A DNA stretch of 64,000 bases from Chitinophaga sancti. Lineage in GTDB: Bacteria > Bacteroidota > Bacteroidia > Chitinophagales > Chitinophagaceae. Positions 6,982 through 40,581 of the stretch are shown here, piece by piece. The translations under genes were made by a program, and so were the position numbers. The stretch lies in contig NZ_CP139972.1 in assembly GCF_034424315.1 (NCBI RefSeq), positions 3,410,001 to 3,474,000 of the forward strand, given 5' to 3'. The notes below the pieces were generated by a model. That model searched no databases, was not told the origin of the DNA, and saw nothing but the letters and a program-made list of their open reading frames with translations. Position 1 is the stretch's first letter. Each line of letters begins with the position of its first letter.

Positions 6982-9900
6982 TTATTTGAATTTGACATTA
7001 ACGTTCACACCATAAGTCCTTGCAGAAGGAACACCTGTACCTTCAATACCTGCATAGGAAACCAGGGAGGAGAAACCAGCTTCAGGATCGATGATGCCAG
7101 ATCTTCTCATAATAGTCCACAGGTTACGACCAACTACAGAAACGTTGATTGAGCGGATCAAAGGAATGTTGCCCAGCAGTTTCTCGTTCAGTGTATAACC
7201 CAGTGTTATCTGACGCAGTTTGATATAGTCACCATTCAGTACGCTCAGCGGACCAGTGATGTTTCTGCTGAAGATAGCCTGGTAGTAAGCCTGGGATGTT
7301 ACAGTCTTCGTGTTTGCAGCGCCGCTTTCGTATACACCGGTGGTGATACCATTTTCACGACCGTTAAGTGTTTCTTTGTTCAGACCGCGGTAGATGCTAT
7401 ATGCTTTGGTAGCAGAGATGATCTTATTACCATAGTTATAGTCGATCAGGAAAGACAGCGTGATGTTTTTATAACTGAAGTCATTGTTCAAACCACCATA
7501 AAATGTAGGCAGTACAGTACCCCAGGATTTCAGATCACCTTGTACAGGAAGACCACCACCATCAACGATCATATTTCCTTTAGCATCCCATTTGTAGTCA
7601 TAACCCAGGATTTGCGGCCCGGCTTTACCAACTTCATAAGCACTGTAGATAGAACCGTGGTTAGGACGGTCAGTACCCAGCGTGATGGTATTGTTAAAGT
7701 TGTCAGTATGGAGGATTTCGTTCTTAACAGATGTTAAGTTGAGTGATACGTTCCAGTTCAAATCTTTATTCGTGATTGGCGTACCAGAGATCATTACTTC
7801 CAGACCTTTATTCATGGTGCTACCAGTAGGCACATACCCTGCGCTGTAACCGGTAGATAAGCTAAAGTTAGCCTTCATGATTTCGTTTTTGGTCTTGCGG
7901 TGGAAGTAAGCAATGTCCAGACCTAATCTGTTGTCAAACCATTTCAGTTCAGCACCTACTTCAACTTCTGTTACAGTGAATGGTTTCAGGAGACCTGAAG
8001 GCAGGTTATTACTGAAGCGACCAGTTGGAACCCCATTGATGGTGCTTTCCAGGCCATAATATACCATGGTTTGGTAAGGCTGTACTGGCTCACCACTTGT
8101 TTGAGCATAGCTTGCACGGATCTTACCATAACTCATTTTAGGCAGCTTATACAGATCGGAGAAGAGGAAGCTACCAGATACGGATGGAGTAAAGATACCT
8201 AACTGGCTGTTTGGAATACCAGTACCTGCCAGTGTAGAGAATGCATCATAACGACCTGTAGTGCTCAGGTTAAGGTAAGTTTTCCAGTTCAGGTCAATTG
8301 AATAGTAACCTGAATGAGATTCTTTCTTCGTATAAGCATAAGATCTGTTAAAGGTATAAACGTTAGTAGGTGTATACAGATAATTTACGATGAAAGGACC
8401 ACCGCTGATGGTGACATTTTCAGTATTATTTTTCAGTATGTTACCACCTACTACACCGCTGATCACCAGGTCTTTTGTAATATTCTTGTTGTTAACGCCA
8501 ACAAAAACATCACCATTAAGTTGGGATGCAAAAGGAGTCTGAAGGTTATAGCTACCTGTCTGGTTGCTATAATTTTGGTTTTTGGTGTAGTCTGTACCGG
8601 TAGGTTCAATTTTCATTATGCGGTCATTCTCATAATCATAACCAACACGACCACTTGCATATAACCAGTCTGTCAGGTTGTATTTAACTGTTACAGCGGA
8701 GATCAGACGTTTACGACCGATGTTGTTAATGTAACGGTTGATAACGAACCATGGGTTAGTTACGTAGTTATCGTCAGTCCAGAGTACTTCAGCACCATTT
8801 GCATCATAACCCGGATCGAGGATCTTTTCATTGATGTTATTAGCAATGAACAGACCGTTGTTTACGTTCAGCGGTCCATCAGAAAGCTGTGGCTTATTTT
8901 TCTGCAGTTCATCTACATAGTTAGCCATTACCTTCACGTTCAATTTTGGTGAGATATTCTGTTCAACGTTCAGGTTGATGGATTTTCTGTTCAGGCCAGA
9001 ATTACGAACGATTGCCTGGTTGTCCAGGTTAGACAGGGATAAGCGGAAAGTTCCTTTATCACCACCTGAGGACATAGATACTGTGTTAGTGAAAGTAGGA
9101 CCTGGACGGTAGAAGTTCTTGATGTTATCTTTATATGCAGAATATGAATAAGATTTACCATCGAACTGAGTGAAGGAAGAGCCATCCAGTTTACCACCCC
9201 AGCTAAAGCGGGTACTACCCTGCGCAGCTGAAGCGTTAGCAGGTTTAGCGCCACCAGTACCCTGACCGTAAGTATACTGCCAGTCGCTGAAGTCGATCGC
9301 TTTATCTACCGCATAGTTCATGTTATAATCCACGGAGAAAGCTCCTTTTTTCCCGGATTTAGTGGTGATGAGTATTACACCATTAGCAGCACGCGCGCCA
9401 TATAATGCAGATGCAGCCTGGCCTTTCAGGACTGTCATATTTTCGATATCATCAGGGTTCAGGTTTCCGATACCATCACCGGCATCAGCACCGCCCCACT
9501 CACCTGCGCTACCACGCTGTGTGTTATCCATAGGTACACCGTTGATTACAAACAGTGGTGCTCCACCAGAGTTCATGCTGGGCATACCACGCAGCAGGAT
9601 ACGGGCAGAAGAACCCGGGCCGCCACTGGAACCGTGTACATTCACACCAGAAACACGGCCACCCAAAGAGAGGGCAACGTTCGTTTCACGTGCTTTGGTC
9701 ATCAGGTCACCGCCTACTTTGGCAACTGAGTAACCTAACTTTGAATTATCTTTTGCAATACCCAGCGCCGTTACAACCAGTTCTCCCAACTGTGTAGCAG
9801 ATTCGTCGAGTGTAACAGAAACAGCGTTTTGTCCTGCTCCTACCTCAACTGTTTTGGTAGCATAACCTACCAGCGAAAATTGTAACTGAAAAGTGTTTTC

Positions 9901-10095
9901 CGGTGCTCCTTTCAAAGTAAAAGATCCATCTCCACCAGAAACCGTTGCTACATTCTTTCCCTTAACAATTACAGTTACAGTGGGAAGACCAGCTCCGGAT
10001 TTGCTATCCTTAACACTCCCGGTGATCTGCCTTGTTTGTGCAAAAGCTGCCGTTGTAAGCAACATTGCGATGATCAGCAAACGAAGTTGTCTCAT
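6982..10095 (-). CDS. SusC/RagA-family TonB-linked outer-membrane transporter, short form without STN domain
   Basis: A 1037-aa protein with a signal peptide (MRQLRLLIIAMLLTTAAFA). A carboxypeptidase-like regulatory domain follows (about residues 22-105: ITGSVKDSKSGAGLPTVTVIVKG ...), then the plug with the SusC hallmarks VTALGIAKDNSKLGYSV, LFVINGVPMDNT and ALYGARAANGVILITTKSG, and a long 22-strand-type barrel ending in VNVKFK. No STN signalling domain precedes the plug, unlike the two other SusC genes in the window, and no sigma/anti-sigma pair adjoins it. It is therefore probably controlled differently. It is first in a four-gene minus-strand operon. Confidence 0.93.
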   Translation of the reverse strand: MRQLRLLIIAMLLTTAAFAQTRQITGSVKDSKSGAGLPTVTVIVKGKNVATVSGGDGSFTLKGAPENTFQLQFSLVGYATKTVEVGAGQNAVSVTLDESATQLGELVVTALGIAKDNSKLGYSVAKVGGDLMTKARETNVALSLGGRVSGVNVHGSSGGPGSSARILLRGMPSMNSGGAPLFVINGVPMDNTQRGSAGEWGGADAGDGIGNLNPDDIENMTVLKGQAASALYGARAANGVILITTKSGKKGAFSVDYNMNYAVDKAIDFSDWQYTYGQGTGGAKPANASAAQGSTRFSWGGKLDGSSFTQFDGKSYSYSAYKDNIKNFYRPGPTFTNTVSMSSGGDKGTFRLSLSNLDNQAIVRNSGLNRKSINLNVEQNISPKLNVKVMANYVDELQKNKPQLSDGPLNVNNGLFIANNINEKILDPGYDANGAEVLWTDDNYVTNPWFVINRYINNIGRKRLISAVTVKYNLTDWLYASGRVGYDYENDRIMKIEPTGTDYTKNQNYSNQTGSYNLQTPFASQLNGDVFVGVNNKNITKDLVISGVVGGNILKNNTENVTISGGPFIVNYLYTPTNVYTFNRSYAYTKKESHSGYYSIDLNWKTYLNLSTTGRYDAFSTLAGTGIPNSQLGIFTPSVSGSFLFSDLYKLPKMSYGKIRASYAQTSGEPVQPYQTMVYYGLESTINGVPTGRFSNNLPSGLLKPFTVTEVEVGAELKWFDNRLGLDIAYFHRKTKNEIMKANFSLSTGYSAGYVPTGSTMNKGLEVMISGTPITNKDLNWNVSLNLTSVKNEILHTDNFNNTITLGTDRPNHGSIYSAYEVGKAGPQILGYDYKWDAKGNMIVDGGGLPVQGDLKSWGTVLPTFYGGLNNDFSYKNITLSFLIDYNYGNKIISATKAYSIYRGLNKETLNGRENGITTGVYESGAANTKTVTSQAYYQAIFSRNITGPLSVLNGDYIKLRQITLGYTLNEKLLGNIPLIRSINVSVVGRNLWTIMRRSGIIDPEAGFSSLVSYAGIEGTGVPSARTYGVNVNVKFK

Positions 10096-32734: not shown

Positions 32735-32778
32735 CAAAAATAAAATCAGGTAAAAAGGGTTTCAGTGACTATTATCAC
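32735..32778 (-). promoter_or_regulatory. Promoter with Crp/Fnr-like dyad for the YeeE pair
   Basis: The dyad GTGACTATTATCAC is at 32,765-32,778. On the minus strand a perfect TAnnTTTG box (TATTTTTG) lies at 32,735-32,742. Centre-to-centre distance is 33 bp, which would place the dyad near -40, the class II activator position. The start codon is 19 bases beyond the box. Confidence 0.7.
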
Positions 32779-32781
32779 TTA

Positions 32782-34152
32782 TCAAAAAATATAATTGATC
32801 ACGCATGCAAAGTGAGTTAGATCTACCTTGTTGATGACGTATCGAAGGTTATTATAATCTGCTCCCTTTTCCCCTTTATAGATCATAAGAGCGGCTATTT
32901 TCATATTTGACATCCAGCCACTGCCCCAATAGTTAATACCTAATTTATAGTGATCATAGGAAGGAACACCATATTTGTTAAGCACATATTGTTTTACATC
33001 CGGCATCAAGTAACGACCATAACCGGCATCCAGCACCAAATGCTTATTAAAAAAGCTCCACATAGCGGTGATGGTGGCTGCGTTTACATTACCCGCGCCT
33101 TCATTCCTTTCCCTGCTGAGGAATGTAAAAAGGGGCTCTGTACCCCATTCCCGTGGCATAGTAAATCTTCCGCTTCCTGTGATCCGGGTATAATTCACTA
33201 ACACCTGTCCTCTATCATTCTCCCAACCGGCCCTTACACCGATAATATGCACATGATCGGAAGGATTGAAATAGGTTTTGGACGTTTCGGCATTTCCTCC
33301 CTGATGCACGACTTGTTGCTGGATGAGCTGGATACCGGTGATCCATGTATGATTTGCAGCAGGAATCTTATAGTCAGCCTGTAGCAGCAAGGTATTAAAC
33401 AGGTTTTCACTGTATTGTTCCCATAGCTGGAAATGGACGTATTCTTTTGGAAGAAAGTGTATACCCAGTAAGCCTATGCCATGCGACTGTACATTGTTCA
33501 GGTAATTTCCTTTGGCACCATCGTTATTGGTACCCTGGGGATATTTCCCTAAAGAAGCGCCAATACCATACCAGTGCAGGGTACCTCTTGGGGCTATACG
33601 ATACAGCCATCCGGTCTCTATCTTCCACTTATTCTTATTGATAGTTGTATATATACCTTCTACCGATGTAGGCTGCATCCTATTGTCCTGTGTGTTAACA
33701 AAAGGAGTATTTAGCAATTGTCGGCCAAAGGTTATTTTCCCGGATTTGTATTGATAAGATACGTTCAGGACAGATAATAACATGACCTTATTGCGGGCAT
33801 CCATATTCGAGATATCGAACAATGTACTTTCATAGCGGCTAAGTACATTGGTAGCAGGATCTGGTGTTGTCAATCCGGAAGAGAAAAGCCTATAGCTGAA
33901 ATGCATGCCTGCAGAAAATCTAAAACCATGAAAGGAGTCTGTTTCATAAAGTATATGGCCACCTATTGCATCGGCCCTGTAATTAGTAAGTCCGGAAGCA
34001 TTATTGGTGACCATCATTATATTTCTCAGGTGACCATGTAATGTTCCTTTCCTAAAAGCCCTGAACAGGGAACTTGTATCCTCTTTTGACTGGGCGGAAC
34101 TTACCAATTGAAGCAGGAATACGGGCAGCAATAAATACCATACTTTATTCAC
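32782..34152 (-). CDS. Outer-membrane beta-barrel porin, OprD-like
   Basis: A 456-aa protein with a signal peptide (MNKVWYLLLPVFLLQLVSSAQS). After a short periplasmic segment come alternating amphipathic strands rich in aromatic residues, with ADAIGGHILYETDSFHGFRF, KITFGRQLLNTPFVNTQDNR and a barrel-type final strand ending in CVINYIF. The GRQLL...N.QDNRM section recalls OprD-family porins. It probably lets sulfur anions or small organics cross the outer membrane, judged from its neighbours. It starts 9 bases after the DUF2892-like gene. Confidence 0.7.
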   Translation of the reverse strand: MNKVWYLLLPVFLLQLVSSAQSKEDTSSLFRAFRKGTLHGHLRNIMMVTNNASGLTNYRADAIGGHILYETDSFHGFRFSAGMHFSYRLFSSGLTTPDPATNVLSRYESTLFDISNMDARNKVMLLSVLNVSYQYKSGKITFGRQLLNTPFVNTQDNRMQPTSVEGIYTTINKNKWKIETGWLYRIAPRGTLHWYGIGASLGKYPQGTNNDGAKGNYLNNVQSHGIGLLGIHFLPKEYVHFQLWEQYSENLFNTLLLQADYKIPAANHTWITGIQLIQQQVVHQGGNAETSKTYFNPSDHVHIIGVRAGWENDRGQVLVNYTRITGSGRFTMPREWGTEPLFTFLSRERNEGAGNVNAATITAMWSFFNKHLVLDAGYGRYLMPDVKQYVLNKYGVPSYDHYKLGINYWGSGWMSNMKIAALMIYKGEKGADYNNLRYVINKVDLTHFACVINYIF

Positions 34153-34161
34153 AGCCTGCGC

Positions 34162-34365
34162 TCATTTTTTTTGTTTGGGTGATGGTACGGTACATGCGCC
34201 ACTAAAACAGGGTTGCATATTAAAAACGGCTATGATAGACAGGAATAGACCAGCTACACCTAGTAAGGGTTGTCCTTCAAGCACTGCAAATGTTATAGCT
34301 GTGATACCAGCTATTAGGCGGATAAAACGCATCAGCGTCCAGCGGGTAAAGATGAGTTTTTTCAT
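34162..34365 (-). CDS. Small DUF2892-like inner-membrane protein
   Basis: 67 aa with two predicted membrane helices (FIRLIAGITAITFAVLEG and LLGVAGLFLSIIAVFNM) followed by QPCFSGACTVP with two Cys. This matches YgaP-type DUF2892 proteins, whose membrane part is often found with or fused to rhodanese domains. Here it follows the MBL/rhodanese gene by 103 bases. The Cys pair facing one side may carry sulfane sulfur; that is inference. Confidence 0.75.
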   Translation of the reverse strand: MKKLIFTRWTLMRFIRLIAGITAITFAVLEGQPLLGVAGLFLSIIAVFNMQPCFSGACTVPSPKQKK

Positions 34366-34468
34366 TATGTTTATTTTTCTGAAATTTCTACTAAGCGACT
34401 CAGATTATCCAGGGAAGCCCCATGATAAATATGGTTATCAACCCTTATTCAATTCAAAAATGTTGACA

Positions 34469-35863
34469 TCATCCCTTCACTACAGGCTTATTTTCCTGTA
34501 GCCATTTATTTATACCTTCAGTATAATTCTGAATATTTTTAAAGCCTTGTCCGGCAAGCCATGAATAGGCAATGGTGGCGCGATCACCTCCCTGACAATA
34601 GATTACCACCTTTTTATCTTTGCTGATCTTGTTTATATGCTGAGGCAGTGAGCCTACAAACACATTTTCTGCACCTTTTATATGCCCTGATTTGTACTCG
34701 GTGGCTCCCCTGAGATCTACGAGCTGGATCCCATTATTTTCGTGCAGTGAATTAAACTCATCCAGGGAAATGGTGGTCGCCTTATCAAGGGGTCCTTCCC
34801 AGCTATCTAAGGAAGGTATATATCCAAAGACATTATCCAATCCGATCCGCATGAGCTTACGGGTAAGATCGTTTACCTGAGAGGGTTCGGCAAGTAAGAC
34901 AAAAGGTGTATCATAATCCAGGAACCAACCTGCCCAGGTATTGAAGGAATTATTTCCCTGGATATTTATGCTTCCGGGGATATATCCTTTGGCAAAGGTA
35001 TTTTTATCGCGGGTATCGATGATCTTATAGCCTTTGGTCATTGCTTCTTTCAGGTCTTCTTTGCCAAGCGCTTTCAGGGCAGGCACTTCCGTGAGCAGTG
35101 GCCGGTCTATCTTATTTAGCTTTTTCATCATCGCAAAATATCTGGGAGGTTCAGGCTGATCTTCCAGCAGGTACTTTACAAATCCTTCTTCATCTTGTTC
35201 AAAGCGGAAGGCCCAGTTCCTGACCATTTCATAGCCAGTGGTTGTGGAAGGTACAGATCCCAGTGCTTTGCCGCAGGCTGAGCCCGCACCGTGACCAGGC
35301 CATACCTGAACATAAGGAGGGAGAGCACTAAACTTTTTCAGTGATAGAAATAACTGGTGAGCCCCTATTTCCTGGGTACCTTTAAGTCCGGCAGCTTTTT
35401 CAAGGAGGTCAGGACGACCAATATCACCTACGAATACAAAGTCACCGGTAAAGAGCATTACAGGAACATCACTGGCTGGCTTATCTGTCAGCAGGAAACT
35501 GATACTTTCCGGTGTATGTCCGGGAGTGTGCAATACCTTAAATTCGAGGTTGCCCAGCGGGATGATCGTTCCATCACGGAGGCCTTCATGGTCAAATTCA
35601 TATTGCCAGTCGGGTCCACCTTCATCAGACAGGTACATTTTAGCACCGGTGAGTGCTGCCAGTTCTCTTGATCCGGATAGGAAGTCAGCATGAATATGTG
35701 TCTCAAATATATGAGTGATATTCATTTTCTGCTGCCGGGCGATTTCTATGTAGGTATCTACATCTCTTTTAGGATCTATCACAACGGCGACGCCAGCTTT
35801 TTGGCATCCTATAAAGTAACTGCCCTGTGCCAGGCTATTATCGTAAATGTGCTGAAAATACAT
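34469..35863 (-). CDS. Persulfide-dioxygenase-like MBL-fold protein fused to two rhodanese domains
   Basis: 464 aa from the ATG at 35,863 (MYFQHIYDNSLAQGSYF), the standard start of this family; the longer frame upstream runs through the promoter. The metallo-beta-lactamase domain (1-240) has H56-I-H58-A-D60-F61, with Phe where many family members have a second His, and later HTPGHTPESI, LFTGDFVFVGDIGRPDLL and VWPGHGAGS. Rhodanese domain 1 (about 260-350) lacks a Cys in its active loop (FVLLAEPSQ). Rhodanese domain 2 (about 370-464) keeps C423 (IYCQGGDRA). Such fusions oxidise glutathione- or other persulfides to sulfite and handle thiosulfate. A Crp/Fnr-like site lies upstream. Confidence 0.88.
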   Translation of the reverse strand: MYFQHIYDNSLAQGSYFIGCQKAGVAVVIDPKRDVDTYIEIARQQKMNITHIFETHIHADFLSGSRELAALTGAKMYLSDEGGPDWQYEFDHEGLRDGTIIPLGNLEFKVLHTPGHTPESISFLLTDKPASDVPVMLFTGDFVFVGDIGRPDLLEKAAGLKGTQEIGAHQLFLSLKKFSALPPYVQVWPGHGAGSACGKALGSVPSTTTGYEMVRNWAFRFEQDEEGFVKYLLEDQPEPPRYFAMMKKLNKIDRPLLTEVPALKALGKEDLKEAMTKGYKIIDTRDKNTFAKGYIPGSINIQGNNSFNTWAGWFLDYDTPFVLLAEPSQVNDLTRKLMRIGLDNVFGYIPSLDSWEGPLDKATTISLDEFNSLHENNGIQLVDLRGATEYKSGHIKGAENVFVGSLPQHINKISKDKKVVIYCQGGDRATIAYSWLAGQGFKNIQNYTEGINKWLQENKPVVKG

Positions 35864-35885
35864 AATGTTGCTTTTTCTGATAGCA

Positions 35886-35930
35886 CAAAGATGCAGCCTA
35901 TTACTAACGCCATCTGTGACCCTTGTCACA
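35886..35930 (-). promoter_or_regulatory. Promoter with Crp/Fnr-like dyad for the MBL/rhodanese gene
   Basis: TGTGAC-N4-GTCACA occupies 35,915-35,930, a perfect six-base dyad. On the minus strand the -7-like box CATCTTTG lies at 35,886-35,893, again 33 bp centre to centre. The gene starts 23 bases beyond the box. The same box sequence occurs at the regulator's own promoter. Confidence 0.72.
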
Positions 35931-36040
35931 CAACATTAAATTCATGATTTAATCCATTATCTTCCTGGTAGAGTTTGACAATACCTTTCAGGTATTGAGA
36001 TGGAAAAACGTTTTAGATAATTGGGGCAACCATTGGCAAG

Positions 36041-36084
36041 GTGACTAATATCACAGACAGCACCGATGAAGCGAACGACATTTG
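36041..36084 (+). promoter_or_regulatory. Promoter with Crp/Fnr-like dyad for the TauE/SafE gene
   Basis: GTGACTAATATCAC at 36,041-36,054 is followed by GACATTTG at 36,077-36,084, with 33 bp between centres. The dyad overlaps a GTG in frame with the downstream gene. This argues that the GTG is not the start and that translation begins at 36,101. Confidence 0.68.
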
Positions 36085-36100
36085 CCTTAAAATGAATATT

Positions 36101-36889
36101 ATGCATCTCCTTGGATATATTGCTTCTTTACTGATTGGAGTGTCGCTTGGATTGATCGGTGGAGGAGGCTCCATACTTACAATGCCTGTAATGGTATATC
36201 TTTTTGGTGTCTCGCCCGTTACAGCTACTTCCTATTCTTTATTTGTGGTAGGGTCCACAAGTCTTATTGGTGCTGCCAGGCAGTATAAGGAGGGTACGGT
36301 GAATATCAGGATGGCCTTATTATTTGCAGCTACCTCTGTTATTACCGTATTTATTACACGTAAGTGGCTGGTGCCTGTTATTCCTGAACATATTGCGACA
36401 GTGCATGGTTTCGTCATCACAGAAAGCTGGTTGACGATGGTGTTATTTGCAGTGCTGATGCTGGCTTCTTCAGTTTTTATGATGCGTAATAAAACGCTCC
36501 CTGAAGGGAACGATATGAAAATTAGTTTCGTGAAGCTGGTGATCTATGGCACAGGTATCGGGCTGGTAACAGGTTTGCTGGGCGCCGGCGGTGGATTTCT
36601 ACTTATACCGGCACTTGTATTACTATTACATCTGCAGATGAAAGAAGCCGTAGGAACGTCACTGTTAGTGATTGCGCTGAATTCATTGATTGGCTTTACG
36701 GGGAATTTACAGGATAAGGGAATGGATTGGAGATTACTGGTGACAGTGACATTGCTGGCCATGGTTGGTATTATTGCGGGTAGTTATTTGAATCGTAAGG
36801 TACCCGCAGGGAAACTGAAAAGAGGCTTTGGTTGGTTTGTACTGGTTATGGGGATTTATATTTTAGTGAGGGAAGTGATGGCTTTATAA
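36101..36889 (+). CDS. Sulfite exporter TauE/SafE-family permease
   Basis: 262 aa from the ATG at 36,101 (MHLLGYIASLLIGVSLGLIG). ATG 36,092 and GTG 36,041 are in frame, but the latter lies inside the operator and upstream of the predicted transcript start. About eight membrane helices are visible, with the two family repeats GLIGGGGSILTMPVMVYL and GLLGAGGGFLLIPALVLL. TauE/SafE proteins export sulfite, sulfoacetate or related anions. Here the likely job is removing sulfite made by the persulfide dioxygenase encoded divergently. The shared type of regulatory site supports joint control. Confidence 0.9.
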   Translation: MHLLGYIASLLIGVSLGLIGGGGSILTMPVMVYLFGVSPVTATSYSLFVVGSTSLIGAARQYKEGTVNIRMALLFAATSVITVFITRKWLVPVIPEHIATVHGFVITESWLTMVLFAVLMLASSVFMMRNKTLPEGNDMKISFVKLVIYGTGIGLVTGLLGAGGGFLLIPALVLLLHLQMKEAVGTSLLVIALNSLIGFTGNLQDKGMDWRLLVTVTLLAMVGIIAGSYLNRKVPAGKLKRGFGWFVLVMGIYILVREVMAL

Positions 36890-36928
36890 TCTTCAAAGAA
36901 AGCATCTTATAGCATATCAAACAGGTCG

Positions 36929-37570
36929 TCATTCAATCCATTCCCTTACAGTATCCTCTATTGCACCATACCAGGCATACTTTGTTGTATTAAATTGAAA
37001 GCCATCCCCAATTTTTTCTGCCCGGACTGCCTCCTTATAACATTCCTCATAAATTTTGTAATAGTCTGCAATCAAATCCGGGCAATCGTTTAGTTCTTTC
37101 TTAGTTTTCCAATCAATAACAACAGGGAAACATGAATAAAAACTTATCCCATAAGGACGCACAATTTTATTGATCATATACAATGCATCAATAGATATCG
37201 GGTATGTTTGAGATCCAGGCCGGCCTACACAAACCCTTTCATATGGTTCGTAATAATATCTATATACTTTCCTACAACAAATCGAAAGATCGCCGTTAAA
37301 CTGCAGCAATTGTCCGACTATAGCCAATTTTATACTGTCTGAAAGACTTGCAAGCTTTTCCAGATCATAATAATCATCTAATATTTTAATTGTTGAGTCA
37401 TTATATTCCATCACTACAAGCAGCTTATAACCTTGAATCTGATCTCTTTCATGCCAGCAGGTCGTCTTTTCAACCCTGACCCTTTTCAACTGCGCAAAGG
37501 TCTTGCAAAAGACTGTCTGCAACACAATGAGCATAAGAAAGAAGCTAAGAATATTACCTCTGATTTTCAT
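36929..37570 (-). CDS. Hypothetical exported protein
   Basis: A 213-aa protein with a signal peptide (MKIRGNILSFFLMLIVLQTVFCKTFA). I do not recognise the family. The mature part has six or more Cys residues, including SICCRKVYRYYYEPYERVC and a run near the C-terminal half, suggesting disulfides or metal binding, and is rich in Tyr. It converges on the TauE gene with a 39-base gap and is not obviously part of the sulfur cluster. Codon pattern is coding-like. Confidence 0.6.
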   Translation of the reverse strand: MKIRGNILSFFLMLIVLQTVFCKTFAQLKRVRVEKTTCWHERDQIQGYKLLVVMEYNDSTIKILDDYYDLEKLASLSDSIKLAIVGQLLQFNGDLSICCRKVYRYYYEPYERVCVGRPGSQTYPISIDALYMINKIVRPYGISFYSCFPVVIDWKTKKELNDCPDLIADYYKIYEECYKEAVRAEKIGDGFQFNTTKYAWYGAIEDTVREWIE

Positions 37571-37776
37571 AATTATTTCCGTCTAATACTTTTTTACTGC
37601 GGATAACTTTAGTTAATCCTGCTTTTTTCTGCGCCGGATCTACCATCTTAACACGGGTGGACTTTCCTTTATTTCAATCCGCATTACGTAACATTTGCAA
37701 ATGAATGAACCCCTTTTTAAGCCACAGCATCTGCCTTCGTAACATGTTCGGGGCACGAATTCCTACCATTGTTAAC

Positions 37777-38223
37777 CTAGATATCCTCCAACCTTAGCCC
37801 GGTATTATGGACACGCTCCAGGGTTTCAAAGCAGACATCGGTGCAGCTTTCATTACTGGCACAAATATAGAATCCCGTCTTTTCATTCACTGCAAAACTT
37901 ACATCCTGGAGCTGTGGCTCTCCCGGACTTCCATGCACCTGTTTTACATCATCGTTCAGTGAATCTACCGCACAATATGGGTATTAATCAGTCAAGGTCC
38001 ATGACATTCAATCAATTTTAGGAAAGAACCCAACAGCATCCCAGAACGGCATCCCCCAAGGTGCGTTTGTAAAAGCCTTTACAGCTTCCGTAAATATTAC
38101 AAGTCTAAGCATGGAATCTATGTCCGAATTACAGCAGCATGCAATGCTGCTGATTGCACTTACATGATCAAAGGATTTGCCTGCAAGAAGCGACTTTAAT
38201 TTACTGGCCCCTACCACGTGCAA
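37777..38223 (-). pseudogene. Probable decayed gene in two out-of-frame pieces
   Basis: Between 37,571 and 38,250 there is no intact gene. One minus-strand frame at 38,008-38,223 (71 codons, ending WDAVGFFPKID) is followed by a second open stretch at 37,777-37,983. That stretch has no start codon but coding-like composition (YPYCAVDSLNDDVKQVHGSP ... ETLERVHNTGLRLEDI, stop at 37,777-37,779). The second piece begins directly after an in-frame stop. I do not recognise either part, and they may not belong together. Nothing supportable is seen in 37,571-37,776. Confidence 0.3.
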
Positions 38224-38250
38224 ACTTTTCTATTTCAAGCAGCTCCGATT

Positions 38251-38294
38251 TTGACCAAGGTCAATCTTTTTGATAAGAAATTCCCCCATCTTTG
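38251..38294 (+). promoter_or_regulatory. Promoter with FNR-like dyad for the Crp/Fnr-type regulator gene
   Basis: TTGACC-N2-GGTCAA is at 38,251-38,264 and CATCTTTG at 38,287-38,294, again 33 bp between centres. The regulator starts 20 bases beyond the box. This suggests autoregulation, and the dyad core TGAC-N4-GTCA matches those at the sulfur promoters. Confidence 0.68.
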
Positions 38295-38313: not shown

Positions 38314-38871
38314 ATGACGGCCGACCTTGCAGACCTCATCCGGAAAAACACGCCCCTCAGTGAAGAACAGCTCACTGAGGCTCTTTCCTATTTCAAACAG
38401 GTCACGGCAAAAAAGAACGAACTATTGCTGGAAGAAGGCATGGTCGCCGACAAACTGTTTTTCATTGCCAAAGGTTGTCTACGGCTCTCCTACGGTAACG
38501 AATCTACCCGGTTCATGGCTTTCGAAAATACTTTCCTGACTTCCATTGTCAGCTTTATTTCCAGAAAGCCGGCACCGGAATACATACAGGCTGTAGAGAA
38601 CTCGGAGTTACTGGTGATCACTCATCATGATTTTTTTAAACTCAGGGAGATCATTCCCGGATGGGATAAGATCTATATCTACATCCTCGAATATGGCCTG
38701 ACCGTCGTCAATTCAAAACTCAGTAGTCTACTTACACAAAACGCTGCGGAACGATACCGCAGCCTGCTGATCAACAATCCGGAACTGATTCAACGATTAT
38801 CTAATGCTAACCTTGCCGCGTACCTGAATATTTCGCCGGAGACACTTAGCAGACTGAAATCACATATGTAA
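38314..38871 (+). CDS. Crp/Fnr-family transcriptional regulator
   Basis: A 185-aa protein. Residues 1-115 form the cyclic-nucleotide-binding-like beta-roll (KNELLLEEGMVADKLFFIAK, GCLRLSYGNESTRF). A dimerisation helix follows, then a compact helix-turn-helix at the C-terminus (IQRLSNANLAAYLNISPETLSRLKSHM in the last 30 residues). No Cys cluster for Fe-S binding is present, so it is not an FNR-type oxygen sensor; its effector is unknown. The dyads upstream of itself and of the three sulfur promoters make it the best local candidate regulator. ilvD follows 21 bases later. Confidence 0.85.
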   Translation: MTADLADLIRKNTPLSEEQLTEALSYFKQVTAKKNELLLEEGMVADKLFFIAKGCLRLSYGNESTRFMAFENTFLTSIVSFISRKPAPEYIQAVENSELLVITHHDFFKLREIIPGWDKIYIYILEYGLTVVNSKLSSLLTQNAAERYRSLLINNPELIQRLSNANLAAYLNISPETLSRLKSHM

Positions 38872-38892
38872 TTCTAAAAACAACATGCCATC

Positions 38893-40581
38893 ATGAGAAG
38901 TGATGAAGTAAAAAAAGGGTATCAAAGAGCACCACACAGATCATTATTCAGGGCAACCGGATTAAAAGATGAAGATTTCAACAAGCCATTTATTGGTGTG
39001 GCTAACTCATTCATTGAAATCATTCCGGGTCACTTTTTCCTGAATAAAGTGGCAGAAATTATTAAAGATGAAATTCGCGCCAATGGCTGCGTTCCTTTTG
39101 AATTCAATACGATCGGAGTGGATGACGGGATCGCTATGGGCCATGACGGAATGCTGTTTTCATTGCCAAGCAGGGAGTTGATTGCAAGTTCTGTAGAGAG
39201 TGTGATGAATGCACATAAACTGGATGCAATGATTGCCATCCCTAACTGTGATAAGATTGTGCCAGGTATGATCATGGGGGCGCTCAGGGTAGATGTGCCT
39301 ACTATTTTTGTCAGCGGAGGTCCAATGGCAAAAGGATATAAAAAAGATGGCACACCTATCGATCTGGCCACAGCTTTTGAGGCGGTAGGTAAGCATGAAG
39401 CCGGGATGATGAGTGATGAAGAACTAAGGGATATTGAATGTAATGCCTGTCCGAGTGGTGGTAGTTGTTCCGGGATGTTTACAGCGAATTCCATGAATAC
39501 GCTGATGGAGGCAATGGGTATTGCCCTGCCAGGGAATGGAACGATCCTCGCCCAGACGCCTGAAAGAGAGGCACTTTACAGAAGAGCGGCCAAAAGGATC
39601 TGCGAGATTGTGAAGGATGATGTAGCCAGGGAGCGATTCAAACTGAAGAATATCCTGAATGAAAATGCGGTTAGGAATGCGTTTGCAGTAGATATGGCCA
39701 TGGGCGGAAGTACTAATACCGTGCTGCATATGCTGGCCATTGCCAGTGAGGCGGACGTAAATTTCCAGTTGAAAGATATCAATGAGATTTCTAAAAACGT
39801 GTCTCATATTGCGAAGATCTCCCCTAGTTTGACGACAGTACATATGGAGGATATCAACAAGGCAGGTGGAGTGAACGCGGTGATGAAGGAAATGAATAAG
39901 AGAGGGAATGGTGTATTGGTTGATAATCTGACGATTAGCGGGGAGACTATTTTTGAGAAGATAAAGGATGCGGAGATTAAGGATGACAAGATCATTCACA
40001 GGATAGATAATCCTTATAGCCAGGTAGGCGGATTGGCGATTTTGTATGGCAACCTGGCGGAGCAGGGAGCGGTAATTAAAACGGCCGGGATCACTGGTTC
40101 CAGGGTGTTTACGGGGAAGGCTGTATGTTTTGACGGGCAACCGGAAGCGATAGAAGGGATACTGATGGGGAAAGTGAAGGCGGGAGATGTGGTGGTAATC
40201 AGGTATGAAGGGCCGAAAGGCGGGCCTGGGATGCAGGAGATGCTGACGCCAACGAGTTTGATCATGGGTATGGGATTGGGAAGTGCTGTGGCCTTGATTA
40301 CGGATGGCAGATTTAGTGGGGCAACGAGGGGTGCGTCAATTGGACACGTATCTCCGGAAGCTGCTGAAGGGGGGATGATTGGGTTGCTGAAGGATGGAGA
40401 TGAGATTCATATTGATGTGGACAAGTATATTCTGGAGGTGAATTTGGGGGCTGAGGAGATCAAAAAGCGGAGAGCGGAGTTTGTGCCGGTAAAAAAAGTT
40501 TTGACTTCAAAATGGCTGGGGCAGTATAGGGCTTTGGTGACGAATGCGAGTAGTGGTGCGGTTTTGAGGAGTGATTTGTAG
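38893..40581 (+). CDS. ilvD: Dihydroxy-acid dehydratase
   Basis: A 562-aa protein of full family length. It dehydrates 2,3-dihydroxy-isovalerate and -methylvalerate to the 2-oxo acids in branched-chain amino-acid synthesis. Fe-S ligand positions are C119 ([11 protein letters not shown]) and C192 ([14 protein letters not shown]), with C183/C186 in ECNACPSGG; other family motifs are [27 protein letters not shown] and [17 protein letters not shown]. It stands apart from other ilv genes here and follows the Crp/Fnr-type gene by 21 bases, possibly in one transcript. The gene becomes visibly G-rich towards the 3' end. Confidence 0.95.

Follow-up and report, generated by a model that had tools for sequence, protein, structure and literature searches.

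The bacterial persulfide regulators considered here are mostly repressors of the CstR, BigR, MarR or ArsR types or, in the case of FisR, a sigma-54 activator. In the cst operon of Staphylococcus aureus, CstR is a CsoR-type repressor and CstB is a rhodanese fusion. Within the CRP/FNR superfamily, E. coli CRP contacts cyclic AMP (cAMP) through Glu72, Arg82 and Ser83, FNR proper has four cysteines for a 4Fe-4S cluster, and a centre at -41.5 is the position of a class II activator. Here, a window of 64,000 nucleotides of Chitinophaga sancti (positions 3,410,001-3,474,000 of the single 8.42-Mb contig, C1) was analysed, in which three promoters of a cst-like sulfur gene cluster carry CRP-type dyads (sites 1 to 3). 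These sites are probably the class II operators of a cysteine-bearing Crp/Fnr activator encoded far from the cluster, at C1:372354-372983. The FisR and BigR systems of Acinetobacter baumannii share TauE, a persulfide dioxygenase and YeeE/YedE; there, BigR represses and FisR activates with sigma-54, whereas a Crp/Fnr activator is proposed for C. sancti (available part of PMC7315123). Bacteroidota have further CRP/FNR-family members that do not play the classical cAMP role, such as PgRsp and CrpPg of Porphyromonas gingivalis (available parts of PMC6955866 and PMC12040651). A sulfur-linked Crp/Fnr regulator of Bacteroidetes was not recognised, by title or beginning of the abstract, among the open-access papers listed.

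Direct reading of the letters of the window confirmed four dyads reported in a first-pass annotation, each centred 33 bp from a TTTG-ending box; in all four, a 14-bp dyad, a 22-bp spacer and an 8-bp box make up this distance. Site 1 (32765..32778; GTGACTATTATCAC, in gene orientation GTGATAATAGTCAC) lies before the genes for YeeE1 and YeeE2, with the -7 box TATTTTTG at 32735..32742 on the minus strand. Site 2 (35915..35930; TGTGACCCTTGTCACA) precedes the gene for a metallo-β-lactamase (MBL)-rhodanese protein; its inner dyad, GTGACAAGGGTCAC in gene orientation, sits within a full, perfect palindrome, TGTGA-N6-TCACA, and its box is CATCTTTG (35886..35893, minus strand). Site 3, GTGACTAATATCAC (36041..36054), belongs to tauE, with the box GACATTTG (36077..36084, plus strand). 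Site 4, TTGACCAAGGTCAA (38251..38264), stands before a Crp/Fnr gene within the window and is probably a separate system; its box at 38287..38294 (plus strand) is again CATCTTTG. The boxes had been called TAnnTTTG-like, which is literally true of only one of them, the other three being nAnnTTTG. Sites 1 to 3 are CRP-like, GTGA-N6-TCAC, and site 4 is FNR-like, TTGA-N6-TCAA. The first-pass annotation had noted, correctly, that the outer bases of site 4 are different, and this became the key clue to the regulator.

The TAnnTTTG box of Flavobacterium spans -12 to -5 (available part of PMC9723704). Because the dyads are centred 33 bp upstream of the box centre, this placement puts them at about -41.5, in line with the class II-type geometry suggested earlier; the value derives from the Flavobacterium box, and the start sites of C. 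sancti itself may differ. Sites 1 to 3 precede genes for the half-transporters YeeE1 (PF04143; 32153..32716, minus strand) and YeeE2 (PF04143 and PF20398; 31652..32143, minus strand), for the MBL-rhodanese protein (34469..35863, minus strand), which matches the solved MBL-rhodanese proteins 3tp9 and 3r2u across nearly its full length, and for the TauE/SafE exporter TauE (PF01925; 36092..36889, plus strand). The true start of the MBL-rhodanese gene is likely the ATG at 35863 rather than a GTG at 35929 inside the dyad, and that of tauE is likely the ATG at 36092 or 36101 rather than a GTG at 36041, also inside the dyad. With an MBL-rhodanese fusion and TauE in one cluster and YeeE alongside, the gene set is cst-like, and its content of sulfur transport and MBL-rhodanese genes bears out the earlier idea of a compact sulfur regulon. 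The same content argues against the possibility that the dyads serve a signal other than sulfur, such as oxygen or nitric oxide, which might be considered as other Crp/Fnr proteins such as HcpR answer nitrosative stress (available part of PMC1274295). Among 80 unique G-type sites for which TTTG was the sole selection criterion, the A of the box was also conserved and the spacer hardly so; together with the -41.5 centre, this combination of -7 box and spacer favours activation over a role of the dyads as repression operators. A repressive or non-sulfur function is thus unlikely.

The genome of C. sancti contains 40 matches to the cyclic-nucleotide-binding domain, 37 of them above the family cut-off. 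By eye, the recognition helices differ among these proteins, and six of the 40 have Arg-Glu at the positions of Arg180-Glu181 of CRP, namely the C1:372354 protein and five others. The C1:372354 protein has PF00027, PF13545 and PF00325 above cut-off and so belongs to the CRP/FNR superfamily; its gene is about three million bases away from the window. One contig scan of genomes yielded 64 loci encoding a relative of the MBL-rhodanese protein, and Crp/Fnr genes of one family were present in the fetched flank of 18 of these. Six close relatives (Pseudoflavitalea, Niastella, C. ginsengisegetis, C. sedimenti, Flavihumibacter and Paraflavitalea) have the order tauE / divergent regulator - MBL-rhodanese - (porin) - YeeE1 - YeeE2, with counterparts of both half-transporters; the porin, a cluster member in some of them, is OprD-like in the window (PF03573; 32782..34152, minus strand). 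The embedded regulator of all six has the helix SREVISR and resembles the C1:372354 protein and not the Crp/Fnr protein of the window. Five of them score 370-394 bits against the C1:372354-372983 protein, while that of C. sedimenti is split over two frames, one piece giving 170 bits. In this C. sedimenti locus (L037), tauE (8339-9140) and the regulator gene (9511-9938) are each found in two frames, by sequencing error or decay.

The footprint of a GTGAY dyad 33 bp from TTTG recurs at the MBL-rhodanese promoter in all six close relatives, at tauE in four (two more end in TTTA) and at YeeE1 in four, with spacer sequences that differ among them. Dyad and spacing are thus kept upstream of sulfur-gene orthologues, the check that the first-pass annotation had proposed. 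At a threshold of 100 bits or more, at least one of tauE, MBL-rhodanese, YeeE1 and YeeE2 was a neighbour in 48 of the 60 loci at the top of the list for the regulator family, and at least two in 42; for 60 phylum-wide family loci these numbers were 34 and 19. The C1:372354 gene itself is next to a disulfide-oxidoreductase/rhodanese gene, whose domains resemble those of a CoA-disulfide reductase, and to a short frame similar to YeeE1. This frame of 96 amino acids (L136:12848-13138; C1 374847-375137) scores 118 bits to the start of YeeE1, has a GTGAY dyad upstream and appears to be left over from a second sulfur cluster. Judged from gene order, the regulator gene may have become detached from the sulfur cluster in C. 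sancti. The earlier assignment of a regulator in the window to the sulfur genes was most likely mistaken, the C1:372354 product being the more probable one. Sites 1 to 3 could also be used by another Arg180-Glu181 Crp/Fnr protein of this genome, or by several, as five such proteins (by eye) remain as possible binders, a point to be set against the C1:372354 product, and the short operons of two of them are preceded by a GTGAY site at the 33-bp distance. Such use is quite improbable, as the C1:372354 type was the sole one seen within the sulfur cluster of the relatives.

The short Crp/Fnr-type protein encoded within the window (38314..38871, plus strand; helix SPETLSR) had been proposed to regulate the sulfur genes. 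Synteny, helix code, homologues and the dyads of the own genome do not support this, and it is an unlikely regulator of sites 1 to 3. PF00027 was the only domain to come up in the search; the helix of the helix-turn-helix was seen by eye and in an alignment to 3dn7. By eye, this helix carries Pro180-Glu181 in CRP numbering, and the site before the gene is of the TTGACC type. In the CRP/FNR family, a half-site with G has been linked to Arg180 and one with T to Ser or Pro180, while a GTAAC half-site has been explained by Pro replacing Glu181 (available part of PMC1274295). This published code pairs Pro180-Glu181 with TTGAC, and the GTGAY of the sulfur sites with Arg180. Since the half-sites differ as the code predicts, sites 1 to 3 and site 4 were assigned to different proteins; site 4, of the FNR type, is probably used by a different Crp/Fnr protein, which may be the neighbouring 38314-38871 product.

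The window protein was the best match of no open reading frame in the 64 MBL-rhodanese loci, and frames resembling it occurred in two of 140 regulator-centred regions (L156, 67 bits; L277, 90 bits). Its 29 best-scoring homologues were fetched, and 250 bp upstream and a 3-kb stretch were inspected for each. A dyad with TTTG at 33 bp was present in none of the 29 upstream regions, and none of the 3-kb stretches held a sulfur gene. The 38314-38871 gene may be autoregulated, as suggested, through its own TTGACC site, but a conserved autoregulatory site had to be given up, as there was none among the 29 homologues fetched. Downstream, ilvD follows on the same strand after 21 bp (window 38871-38893); it was rejected as a conserved partner, this pairing being found only in the window and not beside the 29 homologues. 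In the genome of C. sancti, six dyads with TTTG at 33 bp are found no more than 1.4 kb upstream of Crp/Fnr genes, two of them directly before the gene (the window and L103) and three before the preceding gene on the same strand (L111, L134 and L135). Five of the six agree with the helix code, Arg180 occurring with GTGA in two cases and other residues with TTGA in three. The sixth (L101), of the TTAA type and 898 bp from the frame, disagrees and is probably unrelated to its Crp/Fnr frame. A TTGAT dyad at 33 bp lies at C1:8229845-8229887 (L137), before a frame of 128 amino acids (SnoaL-like by eye); a Crp/Fnr gene with the helix TPETLSR comes next, in the same two-gene layout. Binding of all four dyads, its own promoter included, by the window protein would agree with the nearness of its gene to the sulfur genes, the common 33-bp geometry and the box CATCTTTG, which site 4 shares with site 2. 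Against it speak the half-sites, which differ as the code predicts for two proteins (PMC1274295, available part), the 29 homologues fetched, with neither sulfur neighbours nor 33-bp dyads, and the different Crp/Fnr gene that occupies the cluster in six relatives, so that it is very unlikely. The earlier description of a Crp/Fnr protein without the iron-sulfur cysteine set of FNR does apply, the window protein having one cysteine and the C1:372354 protein two, in place of the four of FNR.

The own genome was scanned for a dyad and TTTG over a range of spacings, with the sequence read backwards as a control. TGAYN4RTCA with TTTG gave 202 matches over 21 spacings (control, 101); 28 of these were at the 33-bp spacing, versus 6 in the control and 8.7 per other spacing (Poisson 1.6e-7). 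The strict form GTGAYN4RTCAC gave 14 matches over 31 spacings (control, 9), five of them at 33 bp versus 0.3 per other spacing (Poisson 1.6e-5). Three of these five are the sulfur promoters, sites 1 to 3, and the remaining two are each upstream of a short operon ending in another Crp/Fnr gene. In the latter (C1:1373425-1373468 and 2470538-2470581, both GTGAY dyads 33 bp from TTTG), the first gene is by eye DJ-1/PfpI-like or alpha/beta-hydrolase-like and is followed by a Crp/Fnr gene with Arg180-Glu181. On these counts, the 33-bp spacing is a general property of such promoters genome-wide, and its GTGA form is largely confined to these genes. GTAAC-type sites were not enriched in the own genome (24 matches versus 41 in the backwards control, one at the 33-bp spacing). 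Chance alignment of the dyads with TTTG, conceivable for four sites originally picked by eye, is contradicted by the spacing counts and by the spacing conserved in the loci of relatives, and is practically negligible.

Specificity mutants of CRP at Glu181 were reportedly made in the laboratory (Ebright). Sphingobacterium and Flavobacterium-type loci have the regulator helix SRVVVSR in place of SREVISR, and GTAAC-N4-GTTAC was expected in such Val-type loci because of these mutants. A scan with the third base left free revealed GTAAC-N4-GTTAC there, again 33 bp from TTTG. Dyads were counted in both orientations, each on both strands. In a first set of 98 loci, the 82 of Glu type had TTTG at 33 bp for 70 of 220 oriented GTGAY dyads, versus 31 over 26 other offsets, and two GTAAY sites at 33 bp; the 16 of Val type had it for 15 of 42 GTAAY dyads and none of six GTGAY dyads. 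A second set of 60 further loci across the phylum comprised 21 of Glu type, with 6 of 24 GTGAY dyads and no GTAAY dyad at 33 bp, and 39 of Val type, with 22 of 74 GTAAY and 1 of 10 GTGAY dyads. The combined 157 loci fell into 51 Glu/G, 30 Val/A, 2 Glu/A, 1 Val/both and 73 without a strict site, so that residue and half-site agree in 81 of the 83 loci with one site type, next to the five of six upstream dyads of the own genome; the exceptions are L136, L203 and L101. HcpR/HcpR2, DNR and NnrR show the same correlation of positions 180/181 with the half-site. HcpR2 has GTAAC-N4-GTTAC with Pro181, whereas in the C1:372354 family GTAAC goes with Val181, and the HcpR/DNR/NnrR targets are hcp and nitrogen-oxide genes instead of sulfur genes (PMC1274295, available part). 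A second MBL-rhodanese-like gene in four Flavobacterium loci (L040, L043, L044 and L045; about 7.4-7.7 kb) has two dyads, a GTGAY dyad farther up and TGATAATTRTCAC 33 bp from TAAWTTTG. The locus L256 holds two Crp/Fnr genes of the family, with GTGAC and GTAAC sites both at 33 bp.

The regulator resembles E. coli CRP in fold, in the aligned Arg180, Glu181 and Arg185, in the GTGA half-site and in the predicted -41.5 centre. It differs from CRP in its ligand pocket, and the -7 box of C. sancti is of the Bacteroidota type, unlike that of E. coli CRP promoters. A model of the C. ginsengisegetis counterpart (predicted local distance difference test score 87 overall, 57 at residues 81-90; short helix 79-84) matches the CRP fold with a Foldseek template modelling score of about 0.8. 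In the alignment to CRP, the stretch with Cys78 and Cys84 falls on the cAMP cassette, where the positions of the cAMP contacts Glu72 and Arg82 are taken by Ile and Asn and that of Ser83 is kept; the protein thus lacks the residue set of a cAMP receptor. Of the 157 family sequences, 156 have Cys78 (the other has a gap) and 136 have Cys84. An alignment of 17 sequences, some from metagenome-assembled genomes labelled Kapaibacterium and Bradyrhizobiaceae, shows no variation at either cysteine. The best solved match by sequence, the structural-genomics entry 3dv8 (Eubacterium rectale Crp/Fnr; 142 bits with profile A1), shares C-x5-C in the same place and has the helix HREVITR. As TauE, YeeE and MBL-rhodanese form a cst-like set, persulfide is the natural guess for the signal, and the cysteine pair makes the regulator, by its sequence, a candidate persulfide sensor.

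In the proposed mechanism, the C1:372354 protein would bind GTGAY-N4-RTCAC through Arg180-Glu181 (Arg182-Glu183 in the protein itself) and bring RNA polymerase to a -7 box of the weak nAnnTTTG form. Expression of tauE, MBL-rhodanese and YeeE1-YeeE2, whose products would oxidise or move sulfane sulfur, would thereby be turned on, and the Cys78/Cys84 pair, placed where the cAMP cassette of CRP lies, may sense persulfide. Several observations weigh against this mechanism or its extension to the family. The regulator gene is unlinked to the sulfur cluster in C. sancti, and a self-site was sought in its 5' region and discarded, as no dyad was seen there. The dyad 33 bp from TTTG at the neighbouring oxidoreductase/rhodanese gene is of the GTAAC type, which under the code does not fit a Glu181 protein; GTAACAAAAGTTAC, 33 bp from TAGTTTTG (C1:374733-374776; L136:12734-12777), is the only GTAAC-type match at this spacing genome-wide and stands beside a Glu-type regulator. 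L203 is a second such exception, and a strict site is absent in 49 of 102 Glu-type and 24 of 55 Val-type loci. Among 20 lower-scoring family loci, sulfur neighbours were found in only one, so that sulfur control would be a feature of part of the regulator family. In the 60 top loci, only five MBL neighbours reached the 600 bits of a near counterpart, and 39 scored 100-600 bits, as more remote relatives. A tree of the combined loci needs six residue changes, yet residue and dyad switch together in only two to three independent pairs; all agree, but they are too few for significance (sign test p 0.5), and support for the switch therefore rests also on the published code. A Fisher value computed for the loci was set aside as evidence because it takes related loci to be independent.

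A wider reading can be offered tentatively, with somewhat more doubt than confidence: a family of Crp/Fnr activators common among Bacteroidota may sense sulfane sulfur by a Cys78/Cys84 dithiol in the former cAMP cassette and drive a cst-like class II regulon, and a repeated switch from Glu181 to Val may have changed GTGAC to GTAAC with the 33-bp geometry kept. If true, a large phylum would gain a further sensor type, a Crp/Fnr activator whose dithiol sits in the cAMP pocket, and the family would make it possible to test how a regulator and its promoters change specificity in step. The locus also illustrates how the closest regulator gene may turn out to be the wrong choice and how the half-site points to a candidate for testing.

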